Source: an uncultured Rhodospirillales bacterium
GTDB taxonomy: Bacteria; Pseudomonadota; Alphaproteobacteria; RF32; CAG-239
DNA length: 64,000 nt
Assembly: GCA_902763185.1 (NCBI GenBank)
Contig: CACWQT010000003.1
Span: forward strand, 62,001 to 126,000
Direction: 5' to 3'
A model generated the notes under the pieces. That model was not told where the DNA came from. It worked only from the letters and a program-made list of their open reading frames with translations, and did no database searches. Shown here piece by piece: positions 3,876 through 57,571 of the stretch. Position 1 is the first letter of the stretch; each line of letters opens with the position of its first letter. The position numbers were made by a program, and so were the translations under genes.

Positions 3876-4591
3876 TTGGTGCCTTTCTTCTGATTGCTTA
3901 AAATACGGAAAGCTTCTCCCATATCTTTATTTTTGGAAATTTTCTTAAAATCTTCAATCGTCGTATCTTTAATAATTTGTCCCAAAGCAAGCATAATTAC
4001 ACGATCTGCAATGCCAACATCTTCCAAAACATGAGTAGATATTAAAACAATATGTGTTTGGGCATACTCTTTCATAAACTGGCGAATATCATACTTTTGG
4101 TTAGGATCCAATCCGTCCGTCGGTTCATCCAAAACCAAAAAATCCGGTTGGTGCAAAATGGCCGAGGCAATTTCCACTCTTTTCTTAAAACCTTTGGATA
4201 AGCTCTCAATTTTATTGTTAAGCACCTCAACAATTTTCATTTGTTTAGAAACATTTTTAAGAGCAGCGTTTTTATCTTTAATGCCCCAGATTCCTGCAAT
4301 CCACATCAAAAAATCATATACGCACATATCCCCGTAAAGAGCAGAAATTTCAGGAACATAACCGATATGCTTAAGCGCAGAAATCCGTTCATCAAAAACA
4401 TCATGTCCATAGATTTTAATCTTTCCGATTGAGGGTAAAATATAACCGCACATAATACGCATTAATGTAGATTTTCCGGCTCCGTTTTCTCCGATAAGAG
4501 CAATAATTCCGTTATCAGGTAAAGTAAAATTAACATTATCAAGAGCCTGCTTTGCTCCAAAGTTTTTTGAAATATTCTGAACTTCTATCAT
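3872..4591 (-). CDS. ABC transporter ATP-binding protein (GldA-like)
   Basis: A 239-residue ABC ATPase. Walker A is GENGAGKST (about residues 34-42), the signature is LSKGFKKRVEIA, Walker B is FLVLDEPTDGLDP and the switch histidine lies in ISTHVLEDV. The EPTDGLDPNQ segment and overall length match the CcmA/GldA class that works with ABC-2 permeases. It drives the fused permease encoded just downstream, with which it overlaps by four bases. Two start codons are close together: an ATG at 4597 has AGG only two bases in front, while the ATG at 4591 has AGG seven bases upstream, so 4591 was chosen. The 144-base gap to the divergent mlaD gene must hold promoters for both operons; no strong hexamers were recognised there. 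Confidence 0.9.
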   Translation of the reverse strand: MIEVQNISKNFGAKQALDNVNFTLPDNGIIALIGENGAGKSTLMRIMCGYILPSIGKIKIYGHDVFDERISALKHIGYVPEISALYGDMCVYDFLMWIAGIWGIKDKNAALKNVSKQMKIVEVLNNKIESLSKGFKKRVEIASAILHQPDFLVLDEPTDGLDPNQKYDIRQFMKEYAQTHIVLISTHVLEDVGIADRVIMLALGQIIKDTTIEDFKKISKNKDMGEAFRILSNQKKGTK

Positions 4592-4741
4592 TGGCATACC
4601 TATTTATTTAAGTCTGAATACATATTTAGCATAAAATGTTTAAAATTTTCACAATTTAAGCAAGAAATAAAAAACGTTGATGACAAACAATTATTTAAGA
4701 GCTATAAATATGCCATAAACAATCTGACAACGGAGAAAACA

Positions 4742-5326
4742 TTGGAAGAGAAGTATACAAACGAAGAAGCAAAGTCCTTAAAAACAGGGATGGCTGCATT
4801 ACTTGTTATTTTAATAGGCGTTGTGGTAACAATTTCGCATAATGCCTCAATACAGCAAAAAAATATGGGCGATACATATAAAATCTATGCTAATTTTGGT
4901 AGAACTGATGGCTTAGAAATAGGTAGCCCTGTCCGCTTAGGCGGCATAAATGTCGGACGAGTCGTTGCCTCAGAATTAACGGAACATTTTCATTCAAAAT
5001 TGACGTTTGAAATAGATTCAGATTATAAAATACCAGAGGATAGCAGTGCCGCTATTGTAAGTTCCGGACTGCTCGGAGGAAAGTATGTAGAAATAGAAAT
5101 CGGCGGAGAGGAAGAATATCTCAAAGCCGGTAGCACAATGAGTTATACTCAAGACGCTATGGTGTTAGAAGAATTATTAGATAGAATAATTGCAATTGGT
5201 CGCAGTTCACGCGAAAATAAAGCAAACACGGAAGAAAAAGAAAATTCCGAGGTTACAATGCCGATTGCAAATACTGAAGAAACAGAAATTAAAGCAGATG
5301 ATGTAAAAGGAGACGAAAATGAATAA
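4742..5326 (+). CDS. mlaD: MlaD-family lipid transport protein, first copy
   Basis: A 194-residue inner-membrane protein with one N-terminal helix (about 17-35) and a single MCE/MlaD domain (about 40-140). Visible motifs are GLEIGSPVRLGGINVGRV and SGLLGGKYVEIEIG. MlaD forms a hexameric ring that passes phospholipids between the inner-membrane MlaFEB ATPase complex and periplasmic MlaC. The start is TTG: GGAG lies at 4732-4735, six bases before it, and no ATG is well placed. The C-terminal 45 residues are a Glu-rich acidic tail. A second mlaD overlaps its end by eight bases. mlaE and mlaF are not in the window, and mlaC lies 12 kb away at 17.1 kb. Confidence 0.9.
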   Translation: MEEKYTNEEAKSLKTGMAALLVILIGVVVTISHNASIQQKNMGDTYKIYANFGRTDGLEIGSPVRLGGINVGRVVASELTEHFHSKLTFEIDSDYKIPEDSSAAIVSSGLLGGKYVEIEIGGEEEYLKAGSTMSYTQDAMVLEELLDRIIAIGRSSRENKANTEEKENSEVTMPIANTEETEIKADDVKGDENE

Positions 5327-5777
5327 AAGACCGGTAGAAACAATAATGGGTATAGTCGTGTTGGTGGTGGCAACCCTTTTTATGCATTTTGCCTATCAGG
5401 TATCGGATTTGCGCGCTGTCAAAGGTTATGAGATAAAAGCACGATTCTTAAAAGTTGGTGGGCTTAATACTGGTGCGGATGTTCGCATAAACGGCATCAA
5501 AGTCGGCTCTGTGATTTCTCAAACAATAAATCCCGAAGATTATATGGTGGATATGGTATTGAGTATCAAACCTGAAGTATCGTTGCCCGCAGATAGCGTG
5601 ATTACTGTTGCCGGAGATGGTCTGATGGGAGACAAATTTATAAAAATTGAACCGGGAAAATCAACGGAAAAACTAACCGCCGGAAGTACCGCTCAAAATA
5701 CCAAAGACTCAAAGTCACTTGAAGATATGGTTGGTGAAATAATTTTTATGGTGACGGGAAATGATGAAAAAGAATAA
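5319..5777 (+). CDS. mlaD: MlaD-family lipid transport protein, second copy
   Basis: A 152-residue protein with one membrane helix (about 8-25) and an MCE/MlaD domain (about 38-120). Motifs are GGLNTGADVRINGIKVGSV and AGDGLMGDKFIKIEPG. It lacks the acidic tail of the first copy. The ATG is preceded by AAAGGAGA at a suitable distance and lies inside the end of the first copy, so the two are translationally coupled and probably made in similar amounts. This allows a mixed MlaD ring, or two rings; the sequence cannot tell which. The next gene (DUF2155) starts 17 bases before this one ends. Confidence 0.9.
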   Translation: MNKRPVETIMGIVVLVVATLFMHFAYQVSDLRAVKGYEIKARFLKVGGLNTGADVRINGIKVGSVISQTINPEDYMVDMVLSIKPEVSLPADSVITVAGDGLMGDKFIKIEPGKSTEKLTAGSTAQNTKDSKSLEDMVGEIIFMVTGNDEKE

Positions 5778-24519: not shown

Positions 24520-27500
24520 CTATTTTGTCTGAACCCAATGTTGCAAATACGGATTTGTATTTGGATCTTTCATCAGAGCCTCTTCACGAGCTTTCTTTTT
24601 AGCCGCTTCCTTTGCTTTCTTTTTCGCTGCTTTTTGTTCAGCCTTTGTCAAAGATTTGGGCGCTTGATCTTGGCTCACATAAACACTGCTTGTATTGGAA
24701 GCGGCTTTATTACCGGCATCTAAAGCCTCGCCAACCGTGGCAGAGCCTGTATCTGTGATTCCGGTTATAGAGCCGTTGCTGGAAGTAGAAACATGACGCT
24801 TACTCACCTCAATACCCTTAATTTCAGTCATATTAACTTCTTTATAGTCATTAGCATAAACACCTAATCTTAATGCAGGTTGAGTGCGTGGTGCCATATA
24901 AACTTGTTCCAAATAAGGTGCATTCGGATTTGCAACAAAGCCACTACCACCTTGTTTGAAGGTTGGAACACCTTTTTCATCACACTCTTTACCAACTTTA
25001 TAAGCAGAATTGACTGTGTGGTTATTTGGATCGCCTTTAACATTATCAATAACACCATTGATATGAACAGCTTCCAACAATTCTCTGATAATAGGAGTTT
25101 CTTCAGCGCTAAAGGTATCTTTACAATCCTTAATTCCTTTAATAAAGTTCAACATTGACAAGACTTGCGGACGGAATTTTGCAAAATCACCATTAGGCTT
25201 AACGCTCCATTTCATAGAATATCTAAGGGCTAACATAAATTCGTCATAAGTTAATCCCTCAGCGGCACCGCCTTTAGCAGAGATTTCCGGATGTTGTTCA
25301 TATACAATTCTACCGGCGTCATAAACTTTAGAGCCGAAGTATTTTATAACTCTTTGACGAGCTTCTGCGGAAATACTCGAGTAATCAACACCACCACGTC
25401 CGGATTCTGGACCAAATGCTGCCGAAGTACCATCCGGAATACTATCTTTTTCAGGTCTTAAGTAATCAAAACCGATTGTATCAACCGGAAGTGCAAAAGT
25501 ATCGTTGCTGATATTGCTGGTCAAAGTTGAATTAGCTTGAGCATTTTTCACACTATCAGATGCAACAGCTGTGGTATCAGATTTGATTTCACCTGCAACA
25601 CCCAATTTAAGACCTTCATCTGAGGTCGCCGTAGAAGTTGTATAAGTTGTGGTAGCAGTAGATGATGTATTTGAATAAACCACACTTGAATTACTTGCGG
25701 CATTCTCACCGGTCTTAACAGCTTCACCTGTAGATGATTCACCAACTTTTGTAACGGCAGTTACATCACCTTTGTCATTAGTAGAAACATTTTGCTTGGT
25801 TAAGGTAGTTGCACCATTAGCCATATCACCAGAAGCATTGCCACCGGCAACACCTAATTGCAAATCAGGAGCAGCGGTAACAGTGGAAGTAGAATCAGTT
25901 TTTGCTTCAGCACCAGCAACACCCAAGTGAAAATCAGAAACATTCTCTGCATTGGTTTGAGTTTTGTTTTCGCTTACAAAAACAGTGCCTTTATTGTTGG
26001 CCGCATTACTACCGGCATCCAAAGCTTCATCAACTGTGGCAGGACCTTTGTTGGTAACAGCAGTTGTATTACCATCACTGGAAGTAGATGTGTTACGTTT
26101 TGCCAACTCAACTGATTTGATCTCTTTCTTGTTAACTTCTTCATAGTTACTAGGAGCAGTGCCAAGTTTCAAATCTTCCTCTTGAGTGTTATCATTGCCG
26201 TCAGGAATATTATTCTCTTCTTCTTTCTCTTCTTTTACTTCCTCTTTAGGAGTTTGAACAGAACCGAAAGATTTAACATCTTCACCGCAATCAGGTCTGT
26301 TGGCATACGGATTATTAACGATTCTGCCGTTCAGATCAACAGGAATAGCTGTATCAAACAACAATTGCATATCGCCTTTCATGCCTTCAATGTATTCAAA
26401 CTCTTGACCATTACAAGGACGATCTAAGGCGCTCATAACATTTTGTGCTGCAACATAGGCATCGCGCACAGTCCCATCTTGATTATATTGGAATCCCAGT
26501 TGTTGGCGAACTCTTCTTAATAAAGCATCAGGGGAAACTTGCGTAGCAACTGAATCACCTTTATGTTGGAATGTTGGAAGAGAATCTTGGATCAATGCCG
26601 CATTTCGATACATTCTGTCAAAACGTGCCGAATCAAGATGGTTGTAGTAATACAAAGTTGCTGCATAATCATCTTTACCTGTATGATACTTCATATCTGC
26701 ATTCCACTCATGCGGAACAGCCATATTCATGATAGAATCACGGTGAGCTTTTTTAGCTGCATCTGCTTTCGCTTTAGCATCTGCTTTGGCTTTATCTTCA
26801 GCAGCTTTCTTCTTTTGAGCTTCGGCAAAAGAGGCAGCTTTGGCTTTTTCTTCAGCCGCTTTCTTCTGCGCTTCAATTTCTTGTGGTGTTAAAGTTTTTG
26901 TATCTCCGGAATTAGAACAACTGGTTAAGAAGGTTGAAACAGTCATCAACCCAACCAAAACAGCAGCTTTGCCTCTCGGCTTCATTTGATGTAAAGTAAA
27001 CTCTGCACTGGCAACTTTTGTTTTTGCATAAATAGAAACTTTCTTTGCAAATCTATTCCATTTCGCTTGTGCTTTGTTGCAAACCTTTTCAACGCTCTCT
27101 TGAGAAATGCTGATTTTCTTTGTAAAATCCCAAGCACTTTTCATTTTTTGACGGAATGTAGCTAAAGGTTTTTCGGAATTTGTCTTGATTGCTTCAATAA
27201 CAGCTTCTTCGCGACCTTCATTAATTTCATCTAATCTCAAAGAAATAATGTGGGCCTTTGTTTGCTCTTTAACTAAATCCTCAACAGATTGCTCACTGAC
27301 ACCATTTTCTGCCATATTTTCAGCAACATTCGTTGCCGCAGCATAAGTCACACCTTGCAACGCCATTTCATTAGCAGCTTCTTGAGCTTCAGGAGCTACA
27401 TTATCAAAGGTAACAGGAGTTGCTTTTTGAGCTTGCTGAACTTCTTTGTCTTTGGCAACATTTTCAACAACTTGTTGAACATCTAATTGCTCAAAATAAG

Positions 27501-27972
27501 CCAAACCTTCTTCGCTGACTTTTGCTAAAGTTTCATCATCTGCATCATTAAAGGAAGTATTTGCTTCCGCAAACTTAATCAATATGGCGGCAAATTCCGG
27601 ATCTGTTGTATCTGCTTTCAAAAGTTCAATCGCTTGCTCAAACGTTCTTCTATCAACTTTGCCTTTGACGCATCCGCCGACAATATTATAAGCTTCTGTT
27701 AAATCTAAAGATTTTTTAACTTTAGGATTTTGTTTTGCTCTATCTTCTTGCAAAAGTTTTGCAAATTGAGCATCATCTCTTTGCACCATTTCTAAAGCGT
27801 GCTTATAAATAAGGATACGCTTCTCAGAGAAGTTTGAATGAATTTGTTTATATCCGCCGACAATAGCATAAGCGTCAGCTAAGGACATCTCTCTAATTTC
27901 CTTAAAGACTACAGCCTTCTTCTGAGTTTGAATTTTACCATTACTAAAACGTTTTTGACGAATTTTAGTCAC
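24520..27972 (-). CDS. Large repeat protein of unknown family with internal lipoprotein-like signal
   Basis: A 1150-residue protein that was not recognised. The start is GTG at 27972, with AGGAG eight bases upstream; the ATG at 28020 falls inside the promoter and can be excluded. Parts seen in order: a basic N-terminus; two related helical units of about 50 residues (about 28-80 and 90-140) sharing AYxIVGG; a Glu/Ala/Val-rich helical region; at about 330-352 a stretch that looks exactly like a lipoprotein signal (MKPRGK, hydrophobic core, LTSC with Cys352); a Lys/Ala/Glu-rich TolA-like helix; a Cys-containing mixed region; three Ser/Thr/Asn-rich repeats of about 70 residues, each headed LxLG; a helical domain between repeats 2 and 3; and a Lys/Ala-rich C-terminal helix. 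No ribosome site precedes the internal Met, so this reads as one chain, perhaps anchored at the internal segment. It is a single-gene unit with its own promoter and terminator. Confidence 0.85.
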   Translation of the reverse strand: MTKIRQKRFSNGKIQTQKKAVVFKEIREMSLADAYAIVGGYKQIHSNFSEKRILIYKHALEMVQRDDAQFAKLLQEDRAKQNPKVKKSLDLTEAYNIVGGCVKGKVDRRTFEQAIELLKADTTDPEFAAILIKFAEANTSFNDADDETLAKVSEEGLAYFEQLDVQQVVENVAKDKEVQQAQKATPVTFDNVAPEAQEAANEMALQGVTYAAATNVAENMAENGVSEQSVEDLVKEQTKAHIISLRLDEINEGREEAVIEAIKTNSEKPLATFRQKMKSAWDFTKKISISQESVEKVCNKAQAKWNRFAKKVSIYAKTKVASAEFTLHQMKPRGKAAVLVGLMTVSTFLTSCSNSGDTKTLTPQEIEAQKKAAEEKAKAASFAEAQKKKAAEDKAKADAKAKADAAKKAHRDSIMNMAVPHEWNADMKYHTGKDDYAATLYYYNHLDSARFDRMYRNAALIQDSLPTFQHKGDSVATQVSPDALLRRVRQQLGFQYNQDGTVRDAYVAAQNVMSALDRPCNGQEFEYIEGMKGDMQLLFDTAIPVDLNGRIVNNPYANRPDCGEDVKSFGSVQTPKEEVKEEKEEENNIPDGNDNTQEEDLKLGTAPSNYEEVNKKEIKSVELAKRNTSTSSDGNTTAVTNKGPATVDEALDAGSNAANNKGTVFVSENKTQTNAENVSDFHLGVAGAEAKTDSTSTVTAAPDLQLGVAGGNASGDMANGATTLTKQNVSTNDKGDVTAVTKVGESSTGEAVKTGENAASNSSVVYSNTSSTATTTYTTSTATSDEGLKLGVAGEIKSDTTAVASDSVKNAQANSTLTSNISNDTFALPVDTIGFDYLRPEKDSIPDGTSAAFGPESGRGGVDYSSISAEARQRVIKYFGSKVYDAGRIVYEQHPEISAKGGAAEGLTYDEFMLALRYSMKWSVKPNGDFAKFRPQVLSMLNFIKGIKDCKDTFSAEETPIIRELLEAVHINGVIDNVKGDPNNHTVNSAYKVGKECDEKGVPTFKQGGSGFVANPNAPYLEQVYMAPRTQPALRLGVYANDYKEVNMTEIKGIEVSKRHVSTSSNGSITGITDTGSATVGEALDAGNKAASNTSSVYVSQDQAPKSLTKAEQKAAKKKAKEAAKKKAREEALMKDPNTNPYLQHWVQTK
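24664..26172 (-). repeat. Three 70-residue coding repeats within the large unknown protein
   Basis: Copy 1 (25963-26172), copy 2 (about 25660-25863) and copy 3 (24664-24873) encode units starting LKLGTAPSNYEEVNKKEIK, LQLGVAGGN and LRLGVYANDYKEVNMTEIK. Each then holds an NxSTSSxG-like block, a GxxTVxEALDAGxxAA block and a TVFVS-like end. Copies 1 and 3 are closest although about 1.1 kb apart; copy 2 is more divergent. The LxLGVAG heading occurs twice more without a full unit. Confidence 0.8.
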
Positions 27973-28008
27973 CTTTTTTCTCCTGTTAAAATACTTAAAT
28001 TTAAAGGC

Positions 28009-28037
28009 AGTATATACCATTTTTTTATTAAATTCAA
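28009..28037 (-). promoter_or_regulatory. Sigma70-type promoter of the large repeat-protein gene
   Basis: On the minus strand TTGAAT (28037-28032) and TATACT (28014-28009) are separated by 17 bases, giving a transcription start near 28002 and a leader of about 30 bases to the GTG start. A TTGACA sequence lies further upstream but at an unsuitable distance. Confidence 0.65.
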
Positions 28038-32539: not shown

Positions 32540-33502
32540 ATGAAAAAAGTTTTAAGTATCGTTGCATGCAGTGCCTTAGCAGCCTGTTCCTGCAGTGAAA
32601 ATCAGTGGGAAGCGGTAGATGTCGTAGATTACGAAGAACCGATTTATGAAGAGCAGGCCAAAGCTCCGGTAATTCAAGAATCGGAGGCAACAGTTCGTGA
32701 GGTTCGCCCATCCCCTGTATATGTATCATCCGCACCGCAAGTTGTTTATGATGCACCTTATACCGAAGTGGCAACGCCATGCGTTCAAGCAACACCGTGC
32801 TGCCAAGCCGTATATTATCAACCGCAACCATGCTGTGGGTATCAGGTAGCTACACAACCGGCACCTCAACCAAAGGTTACCAAAAGCCAAAAGATTATAA
32901 CCACTACAACTACTTATAAAGATTGCGGTGGTCAACCTTGCGATCCTGTAACAACCACTCATGAAGAAGTTGTGCCGGCAAATGTGAGCTATACCGGCTA
33001 TACTCAACCGACGGCTCAAGTTGCACCGTATGAATCAGGCTATCTTGATGTAACGGTTGAATCTAATCCGTATAATTCACAAGTTGTAGATGTTCGTCCG
33101 GCAAGTCCGAAAGTAGATGGCAAAATTGCTGCCAAGTATTCTCCGGAAGCCTACAATGTTGTAGCCAGACGTGCTACCAACCGTATGTTGCAAGATACAT
33201 CTTCTCTTTATGGTAATGGTCGCACCAAGAGAATTTTCTTAAAAGATACAAGACTCTTAAGTTCTGATTTACCGTATGGTAGCCAACGCTTAAGAGGTAT
33301 CACTAAAGAAATCATCAGCGGATCTGAAACCTATGATGTTATCAATAACGCAACAGATGCAGATTACATCTTAGATTCTGCCGCTGACTGGTATGTATCA
33401 GGTTCTGCCGCTCCGGCACTTCAATACAAGCTCACCATGTTTGATAAAAATGGTAGAAAAGTAAACGAGTGGGTAGAGATTATCAGACAATTACAGGATT
33501 AA
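32540..33502 (+). CDS. Cys- and Pro-rich lipoprotein with LpoB/CsgG-like C-terminal domain
   Basis: A 320-residue lipoprotein. The signal peptide ends in LAAC (Cys16), followed by CSCSEN. Residues about 60-190 are Pro/Thr/Tyr-rich with paired cysteines (TPCVQATPCCQ, QPCCGYQ, CGGQPC) and look unstructured or cross-linked. The C-terminal 120 residues form a compact domain with RIFLKDTRLL, TYDVINNATDADYIL and YKLTMFDKNGRKVNEW. That pattern recalls lipoproteins of the LpoB/CsgG fold, but this is a weak assignment. The next gene, eight bases downstream, encodes a related domain without the Cys-rich part, so the two are probably co-transcribed and may work together. The ATG has TAGGAG upstream. Confidence 0.65.
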   Translation: MKKVLSIVACSALAACSCSENQWEAVDVVDYEEPIYEEQAKAPVIQESEATVREVRPSPVYVSSAPQVVYDAPYTEVATPCVQATPCCQAVYYQPQPCCGYQVATQPAPQPKVTKSQKIITTTTTYKDCGGQPCDPVTTTHEEVVPANVSYTGYTQPTAQVAPYESGYLDVTVESNPYNSQVVDVRPASPKVDGKIAAKYSPEAYNVVARRATNRMLQDTSSLYGNGRTKRIFLKDTRLLSSDLPYGSQRLRGITKEIISGSETYDVINNATDADYILDSAADWYVSGSAAPALQYKLTMFDKNGRKVNEWVEIIRQLQD

Positions 33503-37728: not shown

Positions 37729-40700
37729 TTATTTAACACCTAAAAACATTCTTTTGCCGACATCACCGCTAAAGGCGGTTTCTTGGTCATTGGCAGCAAA
37801 GACATATTGTCTTAAAAGAATAGGCGCATCCGCATCATTCGTTTTCCCTTTAGCAAGGTTTTTGCCTGTCGCACCATAAAAAGATAATTCGACGTTATTT
37901 GCGGCATTGAAAACATACTTTTGAGGGGCAATGGAAAGAGGAGGTGTGGTATCTTTGCCGCGGAGCATATTTTTGCCGACATGACCTATAAACGGAATGT
38001 CCTTGGTTTCTTGATTAAAGACATATTGGGTTTTAGGCTCGGTCTTAGTCGTGGTGTCTTGGGCTACCGCTTGCGGTTTATTCAACTTTTCTAAAGAAGC
38101 ATTAACCACTCTCGAATTGGGCAATGTATTTTGAACGGTATGTTCCGATAAAACTTCGGTTTCTTTAACGTTTATGACTTTATCAAATCCGGATTTTTTG
38201 GCATTATCCAATGAAACACTGGCAAAAGTTTTGATCTCATCGGTTTTGACCATGTCCATTGCAACCACCGGATTAACTTTAAGAGAAGCGTCTATGTTAT
38301 CAAAACTCTTATCATTTTCATCAGGCAAAATAGGCGTAATATTATTGATTGTTTTAGCAATGTCTTCGGTTATGATTTTAGCTTGTTCAGAAACGGTTAA
38401 ATGTGTATCTGCCGGCTGAATTGATAAAGCGGCAACATTGTTGTCAATATCACAATGCAAAGCCTGATCAATAGCAGAGGATACAGTATTATTGTTTTCG
38501 GTTAATACCAGCGCTTGTGCATCAGGTAAAGGTGTCGCATCGGCTAAAGCAAAATCTTTTTCAACGACATCAACAGAGGTTGCTTTCTCGTTTTGCAGAG
38601 TATTTGCAGTTTGTTGAGGTAACGTAAACCCACCAGCACCTAAATCAGCTAATTGCACAAAGCTCTCCAAATCATTCTGCGACAAGTTTTCAGGAGATTT
38701 GGATTCTGTTTGCTTTTGATGAGTATCATGAGCTACGGGTTCATCAATTTTTTTTTTATCCTCTGATGTTTCAGAAGCCTTATTTTCTTCAACTGCTTCA
38801 GTCTTTTTATCATCAGTAACAGCATCGGTTTTTGTTTCTGCTTGAGTCTCAGTTTCAGTTTTAGCGGTAGTCTTTTCTCCCGGTTGAGATTTAGCTTCTT
38901 CCTTATTGCCCTCAGCAGGTGTTTCTTTCTTTTCTTTAATAATTTTCACCGTTGGCTGAGTGATATCAATATCATGAGGATTCTTTGGTGGGTAAACTAT
39001 GTATTGCTCATAATCCATTATATCGATATTCAAAGTCGCTTTGAACATATCAAAACTTGAGATAATATCGTTATTCATATTTTCTACGTATAACGAAAGC
39101 GTTTGCAAGGCTTGGTCTGCAATTTCGTTGTTTTCTTTCATATCAGCCGCACTTACGGTATCAATGATGACAAGATAATTATCGCGTATCTTGCTATGCA
39201 CTTCAGTGATTTTCTCCATATCATCAGCAACTTTTTTAACTGAGGCAGCAAGCTTATCTGTATCCTCAGAGGATATGCCGTTTTCTTGCTTAACTAGAGG
39301 TTTAATCTTGTCCATATAAACATCACTCAAGTTTTTGTAATAAGTGGAGTTGTTTTGCGCAACATTATATATCCAAGCAATTTTATTAAAGGTATCATCA
39401 AAAACATACTTGCTGTCAATTACAAAATTCTCTTCCAAAGCCTTTGGAATTGCTTGTAGCTTAGTTCTTTCCAATGCCAAATCATTTTCAATTTTAGCAA
39501 GTTTTTCCTCATTAACATCACCGTGCAATATCTCGTCCATATTACTTAAGGTTTTTTCGGAATCTTCTAAAGCTTTAATATTGGCGTCATATACAGAAAG
39601 CACATCTTTGTTATTGGTTACAGGCTTAAAGCGAATAACATCAAGAGACATTTGCGTTACTTCTTTTTGAAGTGCGGTAACAGCATTTTGAATAGCGGTT
39701 GTCCGAGCTATCAACCTGTTCTTAAGGGCGATACTTTCTTGATTTTTCACTTTATCTGCCATTTTTTTCACTTTATTGATACGTTCACTGCTTTCGCTCA
39801 AATCAACTTTAGCCTTAGGATTATCCAAATGTCCGTCAAAGGTAAATTTCAAGACATCGGAGAAACTGGCATTATGATATACCCCGTAAAATACAGCATC
39901 AAAGAGCCAGTTGTTAAAGTTTAAGTTGAGGTTCATATCAAGATTGATAACAGGCGATTCCCAAATTGTATTTTTTGTAACAAGTAAGCCCTTTGTTATG
40001 TCATAAGTACCATGAATTTTATCAAATGAACTTTGTCCGCTGGCAAGACTTTGTAAAACCGCGTCTTCAAATCCTTCAGTATTATCTCTTTGCTCAAGTT
40101 CAAATTTTATTAGAGCCAAGTCCCAACCTCTAAAAGCAGTGTTAGTGGCTTCAAAATCACCCTTTGAAGTTAAGTTTTCAAAAAAGTCATTTGGAGAGGT
40201 CGCCAAAGAACTGAAACTTCCCGAAGCGGTAATATTACCGCTGGTTAACCCATAAAGAGAACCCTTTAGGTTAGGAAATCTTAAACCGTTAACGGCATAA
40301 GTACCTTCAATTTTAGGCAAATCATTACTATTCATATCAAATTTTAACTCAACAGAGGCATTGCCGCTTAATGCTCTAAATTGAGAAACATGCAATACAC
40401 CATTTTCCAAAACAGTAGCAAGATTTGCCTCATGATAATTAGCTCCGTTGAAAACTAAAGTATCCGCGCTAAGATTGCCATGGAAATTATATTTCTTAAA
40501 TAGAGCATAATCAATTTTTTCGTCATTAAGTAACGGCTTACTTAAAAATGTGCCTTTATTTGCTTGTTCTGTTGATTTAAAGATACTCTTTTTGCTTAGA
40601 TTAAAAAGACGATCGGCATCAAATTTATCAAAATGAAGATTTGCCTCAGCTGTCGGCGTTGTCTTAATATCATGAACGGCCAAATCGCCTTTAATGGCAT

Positions 40701-42870
40701 TGGCACTTAAATAGGCGTTCAATTCAGTTATTGCAAAATTGTCGGCTGTTCCGGAAATCTTTCCGGCTAAAGAAAATGGAGTAACCGGCATATCTGGTTC
40801 ATAATTAAAGTTCAATGCTTTTACAAATTTAGTAAAGTTATTGGATTTAAGCTCTAATTCACCATTAACTTTCATGCTTTTTGACGCATCGCTAACTTGT
40901 CCTGCATAAGAAAATTCAATATCACCGAATTTTTGCAGGGAACTCAAATTAAAGTCATCAAAACTACCGCTTAACGCACCTTGAGAAACAAATAGTTTCC
41001 GCTTAAATAAGGGGATATCAGCAGGATTAAGCCCAAGTGCTGTGGCAAACTGAGGGAAATTCTCAGTTTTAACGTCATAAGATAAGTCGCTAAATAGAGG
41101 ATTGCTATAAACATTGTCCGCATTAAATTGTAAATTAAGATTACCGCCTGCAATATTAGCGATTGAAAGTTTTTTAATATTAAAGGCTTGGTCATAAGAT
41201 TTAAATTCCAATATCATATCTTCTAACGGAATATTGTTATAAACCGCACCTTTTAAGGCTATTGAAGCATCAACGTTAAGCTCGTGATTCCAAGGAATAA
41301 GGCTCATTTGATGAATAAACTTATCCTTAAAGCTCAAATTTTGACTGTTTTGCGGTAACAATTGAACATATTTATCAAATAAAATTTTAGATCCTTCAAT
41401 TACAGCCAAAACAAAAGTTTTTCCTTCATTGAGAACGAAACCGATATCTCCGCTCAAAACAGTAGAGTCAATGTTAACTTGTGGGGCAGAAATTTTGAGC
41501 TGGTTCATGTCACCGCTCAAAGCTATATCTGCTTTAGCATGCTTAAAGATAGCTTTTTTATTTTCATTATTGGCAAGTTTAGCTAAATCAATTCCGAAGA
41601 CGGAAATAAATTGCCGCAAATCATCGGTTTCAAAGATTTGATTAATCTGAAAAGCGAGATTTTCATTTAAATTAACCGCACCGATAAATTTGAGATTTGT
41701 ATTTCCCGGCATATTAAGTCCCATACGGGTAATTGTAAGCAGACCGTTCTGTAAAGTTAAACCTGTATTAAAATTAAGCACTTCCGCCCCATTATAAAGT
41801 GCATGCGCGGCCTTAATATCAATAATCCCGTTATATGTTGCCAAATTGCTATCTGCAAATTTTTTGCCTTGGCGCATACTTTGCAAAATATCCTTGCCGA
41901 TTAACTCAAATATCCCCAAGTCAAGTTGCGTCATTTCCAGATTAAGCGCAAATTCCTTGTTATTGGGGAAATTTTTAAGCATTAAGTCGCCGCTGCCGGC
42001 AGCCTTATCTCCGTATTTGATGACAAAATTATTTAATTTAGCAAAAGTTTTATCGTATTCAAATTTAAAGGAGGTATCTAAAGACACATTATACTGATTG
42101 CCAATAAAATTTTCACCAAATAAGGCCATCATAATATCGGCAAAATGTGCGGTCTTAAATGTTAAAGTTCCTTTAGATTGTTTATCAAAAACGCCATCAA
42201 GAGCAGCCTTACTTCCTGTTGGTGCATTTTCAAAAGTCATATTAACATGATATCCCTGACTTTTAGCAATAGCACCTTGGAATTTAATTTCGTTATTATT
42301 ATAAATCAAATTACCGTTTGTTTTATAAGGCCCCTTAATGGTTGATGCATTAACGGTTGCCGATATGTTAGGAAGCATAAGCTCTTTATTATCTTGCAGA
42401 TTTTTGTAATTTAATATTGAATTATTTAATCTCACATTATTAAAAGAAACTTCAACATTTCCCGTTTTACTGGCACCTCCGGCATTAATATTGTCCCAAT
42501 TTGAAACACCTTTTTCGTTAATAAGAACATTAACAGTGGCATTCGTTAAAGTCATAGAGTTAATCACAAATTTTTGTTGAAACATTGGTAAAAGCTCAAC
42601 ATTAGCCGATATTTCCTTAACAGTCACAAGCGGATCGCGAGGTGCGTTGCTCTTAAAAAATCTGACTGCATTTGCGGAAATTTTAGGAGAGGGTAATAAA
42701 TCTACCTTTAAATCACCTTCAATAGATGCGTTAAGCCCTGTGATTTGCGCAAAGCGTTCGGAAACAACGCTTTTGTGTTGATTCCAGTCCATCATATAAA
42801 TATATCCGCCCACACCAGCAATGGCTAAGATAATAAAGAGGACAACACCGATTACAATTTTTTTCAGCAC
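37729..42870 (-). CDS. Giant AsmA-family protein with coiled coil and C-terminal repeats
   Basis: A 1713-residue envelope protein. One N-terminal membrane helix (about 4-26) anchors it in the inner membrane. Residues about 27-1080 are a long AsmA-like beta-rich region (SERFAQITGLNASIEGDLKV, LLPSPKISANAVRF, TVKEISANVELLPMFQQKF) with the AsmA C-terminal domain (about 880-1060). Then come a helical coiled-coil region (about 1090-1300), a low-complexity Glu/Lys/Thr-rich stretch (about 1310-1400), an Asp/Ala-rich segment, and three tandem repeats at the extreme C-terminus. AsmA-type proteins are thought to bridge the periplasm and carry phospholipids. The added C-terminal 650 residues are not typical of the family. 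It is a single gene divergent from cdd. Confidence 0.88.
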   Translation of the reverse strand: MLKKIVIGVVLFIILAIAGVGGYIYMMDWNQHKSVVSERFAQITGLNASIEGDLKVDLLPSPKISANAVRFFKSNAPRDPLVTVKEISANVELLPMFQQKFVINSMTLTNATVNVLINEKGVSNWDNINAGGASKTGNVEVSFNNVRLNNSILNYKNLQDNKELMLPNISATVNASTIKGPYKTNGNLIYNNNEIKFQGAIAKSQGYHVNMTFENAPTGSKAALDGVFDKQSKGTLTFKTAHFADIMMALFGENFIGNQYNVSLDTSFKFEYDKTFAKLNNFVIKYGDKAAGSGDLMLKNFPNNKEFALNLEMTQLDLGIFELIGKDILQSMRQGKKFADSNLATYNGIIDIKAAHALYNGAEVLNFNTGLTLQNGLLTITRMGLNMPGNTNLKFIGAVNLNENLAFQINQIFETDDLRQFISVFGIDLAKLANNENKKAIFKHAKADIALSGDMNQLKISAPQVNIDSTVLSGDIGFVLNEGKTFVLAVIEGSKILFDKYVQLLPQNSQNLSFKDKFIHQMSLIPWNHELNVDASIALKGAVYNNIPLEDMILEFKSYDQAFNIKKLSIANIAGGNLNLQFNADNVYSNPLFSDLSYDVKTENFPQFATALGLNPADIPLFKRKLFVSQGALSGSFDDFNLSSLQKFGDIEFSYAGQVSDASKSMKVNGELELKSNNFTKFVKALNFNYEPDMPVTPFSLAGKISGTADNFAITELNAYLSANAIKGDLAVHDIKTTPTAEANLHFDKFDADRLFNLSKKSIFKSTEQANKGTFLSKPLLNDEKIDYALFKKYNFHGNLSADTLVFNGANYHEANLATVLENGVLHVSQFRALSGNASVELKFDMNSNDLPKIEGTYAVNGLRFPNLKGSLYGLTSGNITASGSFSSLATSPNDFFENLTSKGDFEATNTAFRGWDLALIKFELEQRDNTEGFEDAVLQSLASGQSSFDKIHGTYDITKGLLVTKNTIWESPVINLDMNLNLNFNNWLFDAVFYGVYHNASFSDVLKFTFDGHLDNPKAKVDLSESSERINKVKKMADKVKNQESIALKNRLIARTTAIQNAVTALQKEVTQMSLDVIRFKPVTNNKDVLSVYDANIKALEDSEKTLSNMDEILHGDVNEEKLAKIENDLALERTKLQAIPKALEENFVIDSKYVFDDTFNKIAWIYNVAQNNSTYYKNLSDVYMDKIKPLVKQENGISSEDTDKLAASVKKVADDMEKITEVHSKIRDNYLVIIDTVSAADMKENNEIADQALQTLSLYVENMNNDIISSFDMFKATLNIDIMDYEQYIVYPPKNPHDIDITQPTVKIIKEKKETPAEGNKEEAKSQPGEKTTAKTETETQAETKTDAVTDDKKTEAVEENKASETSEDKKKIDEPVAHDTHQKQTESKSPENLSQNDLESFVQLADLGAGGFTLPQQTANTLQNEKATSVDVVEKDFALADATPLPDAQALVLTENNNTVSSAIDQALHCDIDNNVAALSIQPADTHLTVSEQAKIITEDIAKTINNITPILPDENDKSFDNIDASLKVNPVVAMDMVKTDEIKTFASVSLDNAKKSGFDKVINVKETEVLSEHTVQNTLPNSRVVNASLEKLNKPQAVAQDTTTKTEPKTQYVFNQETKDIPFIGHVGKNMLRGKDTTPPLSIAPQKYVFNAANNVELSFYGATGKNLAKGKTNDADAPILLRQYVFAANDQETAFSGDVGKRMFLGVK
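37732..38028 (-). repeat. Three tandem coding repeats at the AsmA-type C-terminus
   Basis: Residues 1615-1713 consist of three units of 35, 38 and 26 residues. Each starts QYVF or KYVF, continues to an aromatic-x-G (FIG, FYG, FSG), then VGKNML, TGKNLA or VGKRMF, and finally RGK, KGK or LGVK. The last unit ends the protein. The DNA copies have diverged, so this is an old protein-level repeat. Confidence 0.85.
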
Positions 42871-51936: not shown

Positions 51937-52009
51937 AAAAAAATGCCGGAATCTTAACTTATTTTTTAAACATTTGGCTCTAAAATGACAGAAAATAGAG
52001 CAGGTGAAA

Positions 52010-55000
52010 ATGAAACTGTTTGGTAAATATATGAAAATAAATAAAAAAATATACACCTTGTTAGCAGCATTAATGTTGTTACCAATAGCTGATGTTTACG
52101 CCGCCGGCGGAAAAATTACCGCCGCACAGGCATTTTATACGCTTGCACATAATAATAATGTTCAAAAAATCAATGAATTACAGAATCGCGGTTATTCTTT
52201 AGAAAGCACAGATGGCAGAGGATATAATCCTGTCTGTAAAGCAATTATGAATCAAGACAGGAATGCCTATCGGATATTAGTATCTCAAGGTGCTAATCGT
52301 TCTCCGAATTGCTTAAAACGCATACCGGAAGATACATATCGGCGTTTCTTTGGGATAAGACCAAATCAAACTGCCGTTGCTGCATCAGAGGATGGTACAG
52401 CATCTAAATTGAAGGATATTCCGACATGGGTGGCGGCCAGTGCTTTAACCGCTGGCGCCGTGGCAACAGCATATGCGTTGCGCGGTACAACCGGTAAAGG
52501 AGGTGGTTCACCTGGTCCTGGACCTATACCACCAACGCCGACAACCTGCCCGAATGGTACTTATGATGTCAAAACCAAAAAATGTATATGTAATGAGGGG
52601 TATTATCACTATGGAGATGATACAGCTTGTTATTTACCGGTTGCAAATTGTGAAAGTCAAACCAAGAGTATTTGTAATGCGTGCGTAACCGGATACATAC
52701 TGTTTAATAACGTTTGCTATATCAAAATACCTAATTGTGCTGTTCAATCAGCAGATAAATGTTCTCAGTGTGAGACAGGGTATGGCCTACATGGCGGAGA
52801 TGGATCGGCTTGCTATCATGATATAGATAACTGCGTAACTCAAGAATTAAATAAGTGCACACAATGTGTTGCAGGGTATGATACTTATGGTGATCCTTCC
52901 AAAATGCAATGTTACAAAAAGATAGAACATTGCTTAAATCAAGTTCAAACAGCATGTATGCAATGTGAAGCAGGATATGATACCTATGGCGATATCACGG
53001 CATCACATTGTTATCCTAGCAATCCTTGTACCGCGTATGCCAATACAGTTCCAACCATTATAGATGGCGAGGTTGAGTGTATTTGTAATATTAATAAAGG
53101 ATATGCCGGTGATAAAGAAAATTGCCAACTTGCAGAAGAAGGAGAGTATGAAGAAGGAGACGGCAATCGCGAAAAATGGGATAATCTCAACGAACTATAT
53201 TGCAATTCACATGGCAAATATATGGGAAATGGCATTTGTCAATGTTATACTAGTCGCGGTTATGCCGGTAAAAACAGTAATTGTAAGGTAGATGAATGTT
53301 GCACATCATGCATTGAACCGACGTATATTCAAGATCAAAATAACGGATTATGTTACATAAATTTGTATTGTTCGGATCATAAAGTGCAAAGAGGTAATAC
53401 TTGTGTGTGTGAAACGGGATATATTGCATATAACGACGGTTGTTATATAGATTTGAAATGCGAACAAGAATCAATTCATACATATCAGCAAGGCAATCAG
53501 TGTGTATGTAAGCCAAATTATGATGAAAATTGCGAGCAGTGCTTAGAAGGTTATGAGATGGACGCTCGTGGAAATTGTAATGCAATAGAGCCTGTATGTC
53601 CTGAAAATTGGACAGGTAAAGAATGTAATATATGTCCGGTGGAATTTCTATTATCAAGTGATAGCTTACATTGCGGACCGGAATGCGCCATAAATCGTGC
53701 TCCAAGAAGCGAAAATGATGAAAATTGTAGTCTTTGCGGTGCAGGATATGACAAAGATAGAAACGGATTGTGCATTGTTACAGAGTGCTCTTCAGGAAGA
53801 GAAGGATATGTCAAGGATGACGAAGGAAATTGTGTTTGTGACGAAGCTAATGGATATGCCATGACAAGATTAGGCATCTGTGAGAAGAAGGGGCAACCGA
53901 TAGTTGGCGTTTCAGATAGGAATATCAATAACGATACATTTACAATAACACATAATGGTGCGGATGACCCTATTTTCCGTGATGTCTATGGTATGAAACC
54001 GGTAGAATCAGAAGATGCCGAAGGCAATAAAACATATTATGAAAATGTATATAATGCCTTAACATCACCAAGCGACGCCACAGCAGAAGCAGAAAGCCAA
54101 ACCGCTACAATAAGAATAAATAATATGAACACGGGTGCTAACACGGTATATGGTATTTATCAACCCAATGCGATATATAATTCTGCCGTTATTAATAGAA
54201 CCATTAAAGATGCAACAGCTACCGGTAATATTATCATAAATGATACACACACATTATCGTATATATATGGCTTGTATAACACGGGTGAAACGGAAGATGA
54301 GGTATCAAAAGATATTTATAATGCTTTTGCATTTGGCTCTGGCGAAGGCAGTGCCGCATCACCGACTAATAATCAGGCAATAGGTAATATTACCGTAACA
54401 AAAGATGAAGAGAGTAAAGGTCGTATTGTTGGTATTCATGGTGTAAGTAATATTTTTAATGCATATGCCAATACCACAGATGGTGCTGCGGCAAATGCTG
54501 ATGCTCAAGGTTCGATAGTATTGACTAATAAAGGTGAGGGAGATGTAATCGGTATTGAGGGAACAAGCAATAAGGCAAAAATAAATAATGCCTTAACCTA
54601 TATGGATTCTGCAGTTTCAAAAACGATTTCCGAAGGAAACATAAAAATTGCCGGAACAGATGATGTATATGGAATATCAGCCAAAGGAACAGTAGCTAAT
54701 AGTGAAACACAATTTAGCAAAAGTTTCATATTACAAGAAGAATTTCGTTCCACCGGTGCCATAGATGCAACAACCGAAAAAACAACGAGCAAGGGCTATG
54801 GTATATATGTAACAGGGGAAAATGTAGCCGCCGATGTATATAATGCTTTAGGTTATCAAAGCACAGGTATTATTACGGTAACCAATAACAATGGCGGAAG
54901 TGCATATGGTATATGGAACGGTATAGCAACCTATATCGGGGATGAAGGGCAAAAATACTATAATAATACTTACAATGCTTTTCGGTCATCTGCAAAATAT

Positions 55001-57571
55001 GGTGGGGATAATAGCACGGCCAAAGGCACAATCAATGTAAATATCAAAGGAGAAGGAATAGGCATACAAAATGCCATTGGTTCTTACGCCGCCGGCGATA
55101 TATTTAATGCGTATGCCAATTCCGGATCAGATGTAAAATTAAGTGTAATCGGCAATATTAATCTCAATGATGAGAGCACTAATTCAGATATCGTGCTAAA
55201 AGGCTTAGAAGGTGACGGAGCGACGGTTGCAAATGCCTATGCGACAGGCCAAGGCCAAAATACAGAAACAAATGTTCTTGGTAATATAAATGTAACGGCA
55301 AATAACAGAAAAATAGGTGGTATCGCCGCTGGTATGTATAGCACTGGAGCAGTAGAGCAAAACGCTAAAGTTATTAATGCAGGACTAATCAACGATAAAA
55401 GCACTGTTGAAGGCAATATTCTGGTGCAGTCAACAGGTCAGCGACCACTGAGCACCATGTATGGTATGTATGTCACTAATTATGACGTAAACGGCGGCAA
55501 CTCTGAAACCGCACAACCCAAAGATATATATAATGCATATTACGATAATCCCGATAATGTGTCATCAGGTAAAGTGACCGGAACAATCAGAGTTTATGCA
55601 CCTAATGCCAGCTTAGGTTCAACAGCGGAATATTATGGTATCTTTACTAATGGTGGTAGAGCATATAATGTTTATAGCACCAATAGCGCCGCCAATGTCA
55701 AGGGCACTATAGAAGTAGACATCAACGGCAGTAACAATACGACGACCGCCGCAGGTATGAAGGGTGTAAACGGGGCATATTTATATAACACCGGCAATGG
55801 TGCAAATTCTCATATCAGTGTTACAACCTCAAGAGGAAGCAGTAATGCTTACGGTATGATGGGTGAAAACAGCTATATAGCAAATAGTGCCCTCATTGAT
55901 GTAAAGAGCCAAAGAGCCAATGCTTATGGTTTATATGTCCATAACGGCACGATTATAAATGAAAGCACCGGTGTCTTAAACGTAAATGGTTCAACCGGAA
56001 GTTATGGTATTTATGCCGTAAGTGATAATGCCATGGATACCTACGTTCAAAATGCTGGAACGATTAATCTGACGGGCGCTTCTAAAAATGTCGGTATTTT
56101 CGCCTCCGGATCCAATGCTAAAGTTAAAAACACTGGTCAAATCATCATCAATGGCACAGAGAACACTGATATCTGCACCGATGGACAGTGCGGAAACAAT
56201 GTTGCCATTATGTTGACAGATGGTGCCCAGTTAATTAACAACGGTTCTATCACCAGTGACAGCAATTTGGACTTATCGGCTATGGGGGGCACGGTATCTA
56301 TTGCTGAAGGTGGTAGCTTTAAGGCGGCCGGATTTATCAGCGGTGATTTAGATGTAGAACAAGACACCATCATGAATAATTTTGATAAAGAGATTGTGCT
56401 AGAAAACGCCCTAGATGCTGAAGATGTCAGCCAGACTAATGTTAATATAAAATCTTATCTTTATAATACCGGCATCAAGCCCAATAGCACAGGTTCAAAT
56501 GATATCGTGCTGGAAATGAAAGACTTCTCGGAAGTAACATCAAATACAAGTGAATCCGCATATTTGGAACAAAACTATAATGCTGAGAAGAACGCCGCTT
56601 TATTTAACAGCTTAAAAGCCGCACCAACGGCAACTGCTGCCCAACTTGTAGAAGCCAAAGCCATGGGATCTTCGTTTATCCCCAATATCCCTGAGGAAGA
56701 ATTAAAAATCCAGCGTAGCCTTAACCGCACTATGACCGATGAATTATTTAAGGAGGGTGGTGATGTGCGTAAGTTTATCGGTGTCGATGCGATGAAAGTC
56801 GGACGCTCTGACAGTGGCTCACTTACCGGCTATGATATTAATTCGCAAAGCTCTTATGCACTTTATGATAAGAAGATGAATAATCGTTATCGCTTAGGTT
56901 TAGGTATGAGCTTTACCCACACTGATACTGATTACAATGACGATTCGCGCCGCAAGAATTTCAATGTTCAAGCCTATGTCCCATTAACTTATAAGTTAGG
57001 CAATCATTTAACTGTCGTATCAATGGCCGAGTTAGGTTATTCCGATGGTGATTACACAAGAAAGAGCCTAAATCAATCTTTTAAGGCGGACACCTCAGCC
57101 ATAACTTATGGATTATTAAACGAAATCCGCTATAAATCAAATCTCGGATCGGTTAATGTCACACCGTTTGTCGGCTTAAATGCCCTCGGTTGGTATCAGG
57201 ATTCCATAAACGAGGGGCATGATGCTCAAGCACTGCATATTTCGGCAACTAACGTCTTTTCTTTAGAAAGTGCTTTAGGAATTTACGTTGATAAAGACAT
57301 TGAGCTTAACGAAGATAATCGCTTAAATATCGCTTTAGGTGCCGGATATTATCATGAGTTTGCCGATCCGTATCGCGGCTTTGACACGCATCACAGTGAC
57401 AGTATCGGTAAGTATAGGTTGAAGAATAAGATTCACTCTGATGACCGCGGCTTAATCTCTGCCAAACTCAAATATGATTACAAAGCATTTTCAATCTATG
57501 CTGAACTCCTACAATATTTAGAAGAAGAACACCCGACCGAATTTGACGGTGGCCTGCAATATCGTTTCTAA
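52010..57571 (+). CDS. Large modular autotransporter with ankyrin-like, Cys-rich and beta-solenoid regions
   Basis: An 1853-residue type V secretion protein. Parts in order: signal peptide (about 1-32, ending DVYA/AGG); an ankyrin-like segment (about 35-100, LQNRGYSLESTDGRGYNPVCKA in two parts and RILVSQGAN); a hydrophobic stretch (about 143-160) and a Gly/Pro linker; a Cys-rich region (about 178-625) with at least four units of the form NCxxQxxxxCxxCxxGY; a long Gly/Asn/Thr-rich passenger (about 640-1500) with about eleven YNA-type turns; and a C-terminal autotransporter barrel (about 1580-1853) ending LQYRF. The barrel exports the passenger to the cell surface. Start: ATG at 52010 with AGG five bases upstream; GTG at 52004 is an alternative. 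A surface adhesin is likely, but no ligand can be named. Confidence 0.85.
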   Translation: MKLFGKYMKINKKIYTLLAALMLLPIADVYAAGGKITAAQAFYTLAHNNNVQKINELQNRGYSLESTDGRGYNPVCKAIMNQDRNAYRILVSQGANRSPNCLKRIPEDTYRRFFGIRPNQTAVAASEDGTASKLKDIPTWVAASALTAGAVATAYALRGTTGKGGGSPGPGPIPPTPTTCPNGTYDVKTKKCICNEGYYHYGDDTACYLPVANCESQTKSICNACVTGYILFNNVCYIKIPNCAVQSADKCSQCETGYGLHGGDGSACYHDIDNCVTQELNKCTQCVAGYDTYGDPSKMQCYKKIEHCLNQVQTACMQCEAGYDTYGDITASHCYPSNPCTAYANTVPTIIDGEVECICNINKGYAGDKENCQLAEEGEYEEGDGNREKWDNLNELYCNSHGKYMGNGICQCYTSRGYAGKNSNCKVDECCTSCIEPTYIQDQNNGLCYINLYCSDHKVQRGNTCVCETGYIAYNDGCYIDLKCEQESIHTYQQGNQCVCKPNYDENCEQCLEGYEMDARGNCNAIEPVCPENWTGKECNICPVEFLLSSDSLHCGPECAINRAPRSENDENCSLCGAGYDKDRNGLCIVTECSSGREGYVKDDEGNCVCDEANGYAMTRLGICEKKGQPIVGVSDRNINNDTFTITHNGADDPIFRDVYGMKPVESEDAEGNKTYYENVYNALTSPSDATAEAESQTATIRINNMNTGANTVYGIYQPNAIYNSAVINRTIKDATATGNIIINDTHTLSYIYGLYNTGETEDEVSKDIYNAFAFGSGEGSAASPTNNQAIGNITVTKDEESKGRIVGIHGVSNIFNAYANTTDGAAANADAQGSIVLTNKGEGDVIGIEGTSNKAKINNALTYMDSAVSKTISEGNIKIAGTDDVYGISAKGTVANSETQFSKSFILQEEFRSTGAIDATTEKTTSKGYGIYVTGENVAADVYNALGYQSTGIITVTNNNGGSAYGIWNGIATYIGDEGQKYYNNTYNAFRSSAKYGGDNSTAKGTINVNIKGEGIGIQNAIGSYAAGDIFNAYANSGSDVKLSVIGNINLNDESTNSDIVLKGLEGDGATVANAYATGQGQNTETNVLGNINVTANNRKIGGIAAGMYSTGAVEQNAKVINAGLINDKSTVEGNILVQSTGQRPLSTMYGMYVTNYDVNGGNSETAQPKDIYNAYYDNPDNVSSGKVTGTIRVYAPNASLGSTAEYYGIFTNGGRAYNVYSTNSAANVKGTIEVDINGSNNTTTAAGMKGVNGAYLYNTGNGANSHISVTTSRGSSNAYGMMGENSYIANSALIDVKSQRANAYGLYVHNGTIINESTGVLNVNGSTGSYGIYAVSDNAMDTYVQNAGTINLTGASKNVGIFASGSNAKVKNTGQIIINGTENTDICTDGQCGNNVAIMLTDGAQLINNGSITSDSNLDLSAMGGTVSIAEGGSFKAAGFISGDLDVEQDTIMNNFDKEIVLENALDAEDVSQTNVNIKSYLYNTGIKPNSTGSNDIVLEMKDFSEVTSNTSESAYLEQNYNAEKNAALFNSLKAAPTATAAQLVEAKAMGSSFIPNIPEEELKIQRSLNRTMTDELFKEGGDVRKFIGVDAMKVGRSDSGSLTGYDINSQSSYALYDKKMNNRYRLGLGMSFTHTDTDYNDDSRRKNFNVQAYVPLTYKLGNHLTVVSMAELGYSDGDYTRKSLNQSFKADTSAITYGLLNEIRYKSNLGSVNVTPFVGLNALGWYQDSINEGHDAQALHISATNVFSLESALGIYVDKDIELNEDNRLNIALGAGYYHEFADPYRGFDTHHSDSIGKYRLKNKIHSDDRGLISAKLKYDYKAFSIYAELLQYLEEEHPTEFDGGLQYRF

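Follow-up and report, generated by a model that had tools for sequence, protein, structure and literature searches.

A three-unit C-terminal repeat on a giant AsmA-family protein of an uncultured Rhodospirillales bacterium, and its possible role in docking

How does an AsmA-type lipid bridge meet the far side of the periplasm? To our knowledge, the route to the outer membrane is still open for most proteins of this kind, and the locus described here raises the question through an unusual chain end. The window analyzed (64,000 nucleotides; contig CACWQT010000003.1, positions 62,001 to 126,000) carries on its (-) strand, at 37729..42870, a gene for an AsmA-family protein of 1713 amino acids (GTG start, stop included; assigned by Pfam, orthologues, and synteny). 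Its last 99 residues (aa 1615–1713; 37732–38028) had been described from the DNA alone, in what is called here the original prediction, as a three-unit repeat on a giant AsmA-type protein; these coordinates were exact, the repeat exceeds chance in shuffles, and the AsmA assignment stands. The tail may contact the outer membrane or the cell wall, as was also suggested there. An AsmA bridge is a known kind of protein; what is new is the repeated tail at the end of the bridge.

The three units, all on the (-) strand, start at Y1616, Y1652, and Y1689. Unit 1 (aa 1616–1639, YVFNQETKDIPFIGHVGKNMLRGK; 37954..38025) resembles the penultimate unit of relatives; unit 2 (aa 1652–1676, YVFNAANNVELSFYGATGKNLAKGK; 37843..37917) is the lowest-scoring and presumably the extra copy; unit 3 (aa 1689–1713, YVFAANDQETAFSGDVGKRMFLGVK; 37732..37806) forms the chain end and fits the relatives' terminal unit best. 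Pairwise local BLOSUM62 scores between units total 155, whereas none of 2000 shuffles exceeds 80. An HMM built from 24 units of other species finds units 1, 2, and 3 at 14.0, 9.9, and 21.1 bits, respectively; among 20,000 shuffles of the tail scored with the unit HMM the best reached 12.4 bits and two reached 9.9 bits or more, so that unit 2, taken alone, is the weakest. Scored by type, unit 1 is penultimate-like (16.6 bits vs. 3.1 as terminal), unit 3 terminal-like (18.6 bits vs. 15.3 as penultimate), and unit 2 divergent and nearer to the terminal type (7.1 bits vs. -0.4).

Of the 31 units from 15 genomes, 27 were aligned (the exceptions being a near-identical unit of locus L008, both units of L012, and the first unit of L013, which is degenerate and lacks YVF). 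They share the core Y[VIL][FILW], 9 or 10 residues, and usually SG-x-[VI]-x-K, in which only the Y, the glycine of SG, and the first K never vary. The second GK of the unit form first described does not hold generally: unit 3 has GVK there, and relatives do not conserve it. Units are spaced 36–37 residues apart in all 15 readable termini of the genus. The shuffles, the invariant residues, and this spacing lead us to reject chance or low complexity as an explanation of the repeat. Structure prediction, proposed earlier as a check, was run: modelled alone with AlphaFold2, the tail is predicted to be disordered (mean pLDDT 55) with strands absent, and a folded repeat domain is rejected on the ground that no fold is returned. 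The tail matched no Pfam, NCBIfam, or PDB-sequence family (best E in the PDB profile search, 2.8).

The protein that carries this tail begins, after LKK, with a hydrophobic stretch (aa 5–26; 42793..42858, (-) strand), judged by eye from the translation and presumed to be an inner-membrane helix. The AsmA domain match (PF05170, aa 3–476; 41443..42864, (-)) scores 56.2 bits against a curated cut-off of 29.8 (E 3.7e-15). No other family was found in the 1713 residues with all of Pfam-A at E ≤ 1; NCBIfam gave a chance-level match alone (E 0.32), and no PDB chain was similar in sequence at E ≤ 1. Residues 560–1713 were modelled with AlphaFold2 from a 15-sequence alignment (mean pLDDT 55, pTM 0.39); the structure alignments drew on 14 of the 15 loci from a profile search of genome contigs, L082 being left out. 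In this model beta sheet continues until about aa 971, and the modelled portion of the remaining beta-rich body (aa 560–971; 39958..41193, (-)) has as its top PDB match in Foldseek the TamB of TamAB (9xdd_B), a weak match (E 6.7e-3) that is absent among the 50 VIA-align rows listed. Six helices follow (aa 1025–1280; 39031..39798, (-)), with block pLDDT 67–89 and 42–65 for the first ~25 residues; alignments to orthologues of other genera extend across them. The VIA-align rows listed for this stretch are generic bundles (Z up to 12.1, in the range of unrelated bundles according to the tool's own note). From aa ~1305 to the chain end the model is disordered (pLDDT 20–31), and the ~310 residues before the tail form a predicted disordered, fast-evolving linker (aa 1305–1614; 38029..38958, (-)), delimited by pLDDT, a drop in conservation, and pN/pS. 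The roughly 550 residues of coiled coil and low-complexity sequence originally placed before the tail are therefore better described, according to the model, as six helices and this linker. The protein is probably an inner-membrane-anchored AsmA-type bridge across the two membranes: its presumed N-terminal anchor suggests exposure to the periplasm, and membership of the AsmA superfamily suggests, by analogy, lipid transport.

An AsmA-type match was found in 47 of 57 related genomes and a long orthologue in 16 of 18 genomes of the same genus. Searching genome contigs with the single protein as query retrieved no relatives, and with the genus alignment 15. The order RuvX – SLT2 – DeoA – PNP – AsmA – NTP transferase – Gate – DTD is kept at 15/15 named loci, which makes the AsmA protein an inherited core gene; IleRS lies within reach in 10/15 and DUF3137 in 12/15 (RuvX, SLT2, PNP, NTP transferase, Gate, and DUF3137 named by Pfam; DeoA, IleRS, and DTD are our own labels). 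Identity across the genus is 38–47% for the AsmA protein versus 73–87% for the adjoining NTP transferase. The tail is present in all 15 readable orthologues, neither absent nor random in close homologues and no known domain, the outcomes named beforehand as speaking against it. Three copies are not the rule: the other 14 orthologues have two units each, confirmed under named records. L029 and L031, both cut by contig ends, and L015/L082 were excluded from the terminus counts. In L082 (5461–9450; same gene, L015) the orthologue stops at 1330 aa through a broken gene or an assembly error; farther along, a different frame of 512 aa holds a weak tail unit (E 0.003). In L157 (G011 contig 25), a 24,172-aa open frame is explained by a run of N (the first 12,000 of the 13,663 bases examined). 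Deer or buffalo gut samples are named in the record titles of six of the 15 orthologues.

Within the genus the linker is poorly conserved, apart from an island (aa 1530–1542, LKVNPVVAMDMVK; 38245..38283, (-); genus consensus K.NPV.ALNIGK) whose NP[VI][VI]A is found in 14/15 orthologues. In two close pairs, pN/pS was 0.13 and 0.17 for the body, 0.08 and 0.12 for the helices, 0.44 and 0.44 for the linker, and 0.11 and 0.37 for the tail (last 63 codons). Strong constraint on the tail is supported by one close pair, and apparently only slight constraint by the other.

The YVF-type unit is narrowly distributed. At E ≤ 0.001 its profile matched 15 of the 152 family genomes, every one of the same genus (15/18), and none of the 134 belonging to 15 other genera; the three same-genus misses are a broken gene (G006; unit E 0.003), a fragment only (G015), and a genome in which no long orthologue was found (G003). 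In a class sample of 385 genomes (E ≤ 0.01) only the source genome matched (0/384 others). Searching the repeat against other envelope proteins, as had been advised, found it on the AsmA protein only: no other protein rose above noise in 57 genomes at E ≤ 10 (best match outside the AsmA gene, E 0.02). The idea of a general sorting signal on envelope proteins finds no support, since only the AsmA protein carries the unit in the genomes searched.

Outside the genus, orthologue frames are mostly ~1350–1515 aa long, and many alignments extend into the helical region (e.g., query 1–1364, 1–1377); the helical part before the tail, which had been thought unprecedented, is an extension common to other genera of the family. 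A profile of the C-terminal 330 residues of other genera matched 119/134 other-genus and 10/18 same-genus genomes at E ≤ 1e-6, and did not match the source genome at that threshold. The claim that the tail itself is unprecedented holds for databases of known families and is qualified by a shorter C-terminal peptide in these genera, with consensus LL.K..G.ISKASG.I..K (25 of 27 motif-bearing termini of the first set aligned; two near-identical and four motif-less termini left out). The termini, 69 in all, are a non-random sample: 14 from orthologue loci (among them L032, which belongs to a different family of the order), 17 further distinct termini from the best 30 profile rows (119 other-genus genomes matched), and 38 picked by genus, this second set covering genera little represented before. 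The pattern [SATG]G.[IV], chosen like the doublet pattern after the termini had been inspected, occurs within the last 14 residues in 51/69 (27/31 in the first set, 24/38 in the second), against a background of 5.2% among the 14-mers of these proteins. Two copies 30–42 residues apart occur in 15/69 termini versus 24 of 30,430 background windows; spacings seen were 32–39, and the spacing given above for the genus used a looser pattern. By genus (labelled g), the second set gave g12 3/12, g11 5/6, g3 7/8, g14 3/5, g8 4/5, and g6 2/2, and the four first-set misses were three g11 and one g12; over both sets the SG motif is mostly missing from g12 (3/13), whose chain ends differ (around VVKKGR), and is found in 5/9 of g11. 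The SGDVGK core of our terminal unit (37753..37770, (-)) is the likely counterpart of the SG-x-[IV] of other genera, and genus tail and shorter peptide are likely one thing; a direct hhalign comparison was weak (probability 7%, E 0.005, 12 columns). The shorter peptide likewise finds no support as a sorting signal: its 12 matches at E < 0.001 all lie in AsmA-gene frames of 1401–1497 aa. The next match (E 0.016), in a 301-aa frame of G004 about 0.6 kb past the AsmA gene, is taken to be chance; from its position, that frame is probably the neighbouring NTP transferase.

Known envelope systems offer partial parallels. TamB (PF04357) was not found in the source genome at E ≤ 0.01, nor in 33/33 family genomes at E ≤ 0.001, a silence that is soft because at E ≤ 0.001 the model also misses 14/23 class-level genomes and the single further genome of the order. 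One Omp85 match was found in the source genome by Pfam (758-aa frame), which we assume to be BamA, since BamA is essential; together with the lack of a PF04357 match, this single Omp85 means that a TamA-type dock may be missing. The source genome also encodes one further AsmA-family protein (~713 aa) and three MlaD-type domains, and from the latter other lipid routes are likely present. Our protein resembles YhdP as a large and presumably inner-membrane-anchored, periplasmic member of the AsmA superfamily, and we know of no repeated disordered tail on YhdP. Unlike YhdP and YdbH, for which other Pfam models exist, it matches AsmA alone at E ≤ 1. Like TamB it is presumably an inner-membrane-anchored, beta-rich bridge of the AsmA superfamily, and Foldseek weakly matches its modelled body to TamB; unlike TamB it has no PF04357 match at E ≤ 1, and it ends in helices and a disordered arm, where TamB ends in a beta domain. 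The far end of TamB meets an outer-membrane partner, its last beta-strand pairing with the first strand of TamA (excerpt of PMC12800296). YdbH, also of the AsmA superfamily, has a separate outer-membrane lipoprotein partner, YnbE, and an interaction of YhdP with DedD is reported (excerpt of PMC12977461). Among the literature titles and abstract openings listed, none names such a tail.

By analogy with TamB–TamA strand pairing, we tentatively propose that short linear motifs on the disordered C-terminal arm dock with a partner at the outer-membrane or cell-wall side, a reading we regard as a serious possibility and still somewhat short of probable. From the inner-membrane anchor, a beta-rich groove domain would lead through the helices into a long disordered arm, whose end would display two (here three) motifs in which Y[VIL][FILW] is followed, after 9 or 10 residues, by [S]G-x-[VI]-x-K. 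The length of the arm would allow the tethered peptides to span the periplasm; each motif would bind, probably by beta-strand addition, to a candidate partner protein at the outer membrane or cell wall; docking would hold the groove's open end in place to deliver phospholipids; and multiple copies would raise avidity. The docking proposal is supported by units kept in all 15 readable orthologues at 38–47% protein identity beside a variable linker, by the lack of a PF04357 match together with a single Omp85, by the close pair in which the tail (0.11) lies far from the linker (0.44), by the similar C-terminal peptide and doublet in other genera, and by the predicted disorder, lack of strands, and net positive charge of the tail. 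It is weakened by the second close pair, in which the tail (0.37) is hardly below the linker, by the mostly motif-less g12 and the partial g11, and by the weak hhalign match, the soft PF04357 silence, and the likely presence of other lipid routes; no docking partner for the tail was found. Should the tail be the dock, its repeated short peptides would offer a direct means of fishing out the missing partner in a lineage that possibly lacks TamAB, and would show that a folded dock can give way to a disordered, multivalent arm. A broader scenario, which we consider doubtful, is that a family (perhaps an order) of alphaproteobacteria with small genomes, living at least in part in the gut, has lost TamAB, and that its principal lipid bridge between the membranes swapped a folded outer-membrane dock for a disordered arm with tandem C-terminal docking peptides. 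The peptide would predate the genus (as a doublet ~36 residues apart), would have been enlarged to YVF...SG.V.K within it, and would have gained a third copy in the source species.

The alternative that survives best, itself rather unlikely, is that the tail binds peptidoglycan or the inner face of the outer membrane directly, through basic charge and aromatic residues and without a protein partner. Its Tyr and Lys are invariant, the last 63 residues are net positive in 15/15 orthologues after a 340-residue stretch that is net negative in 12/15, and in 31 termini from outside the genus the mean charge is +2.2 over the final 22 residues versus -2.3 over the preceding 50; a pattern is nevertheless conserved beyond charge alone, the charge within the genus varies from +1 to +9, and no known wall-binding domain was found in the tail by Pfam, NCBIfam, or the PDB profile search. 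Somewhat less probable is an intramolecular role: the motifs would bend back to the helices or to the groove and act there as a lid or a regulator. Disordered tails commonly make intramolecular contacts, and the genus conserves both the tail and the helices; in the model of aa 560–1713 the tail stays unplaced (pLDDT 20–31), weak counter-evidence given an alignment of just 15 rows and a model that omits the first 559 residues.

A lineage-specific, low-complexity expansion without function is very improbable and largely refuted: variation in copy number (three here vs. two elsewhere), the degenerate copy in L013, the restriction of the unit to one genus, and the tail pN/pS of 0.37 in one pair would suit it, and the three residues invariant over 27 units, the tail in every readable orthologue, the value of 0.11 in the other pair, and the regular spacing speak against it. 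Braun lipoprotein (Lpp) is a periplasmic chain with a basic C-terminal end, as the protein studied presumably is too, and many termini here end in K, KK, or RK; a comparable covalent attachment to peptidoglycan through a C-terminal lysine has the slightest chance of all, and is rejected as a general mechanism because the terminal K is not conserved (16/31 outside the genus, 6/15 inside), in which our protein differs from Lpp, as it does in being giant and having an N-terminal hydrophobic stretch.

Other features of the window were recorded beside those bearing on the docking proposal. At 32540–33502 (+) lies the gene for a protein of 320 aa that starts like a lipoprotein (SALAACSC) and has no Pfam match; it is found near the AsmA gene in 14/15 named loci. 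Two overlapping short ORFs at 4742–5326 and 5319–5777 (+), each with one MlaD (MCE) domain and followed by a DUF2155 protein, represent two small MCE proteins or else one gene that has been split. An ABC transporter (ABC_transp_aux and ABC2 membrane domains) is encoded at 1509–3875 and 3872–4597 (-), adjoined by a weak DUF4340 match at 572–1516; a 1166-aa ORF at 24520–28020 (-) has no Pfam match at E ≤ 0.001; and an 1855-aa autotransporter with a C-terminal beta-domain is encoded at 52004–57571 (+).
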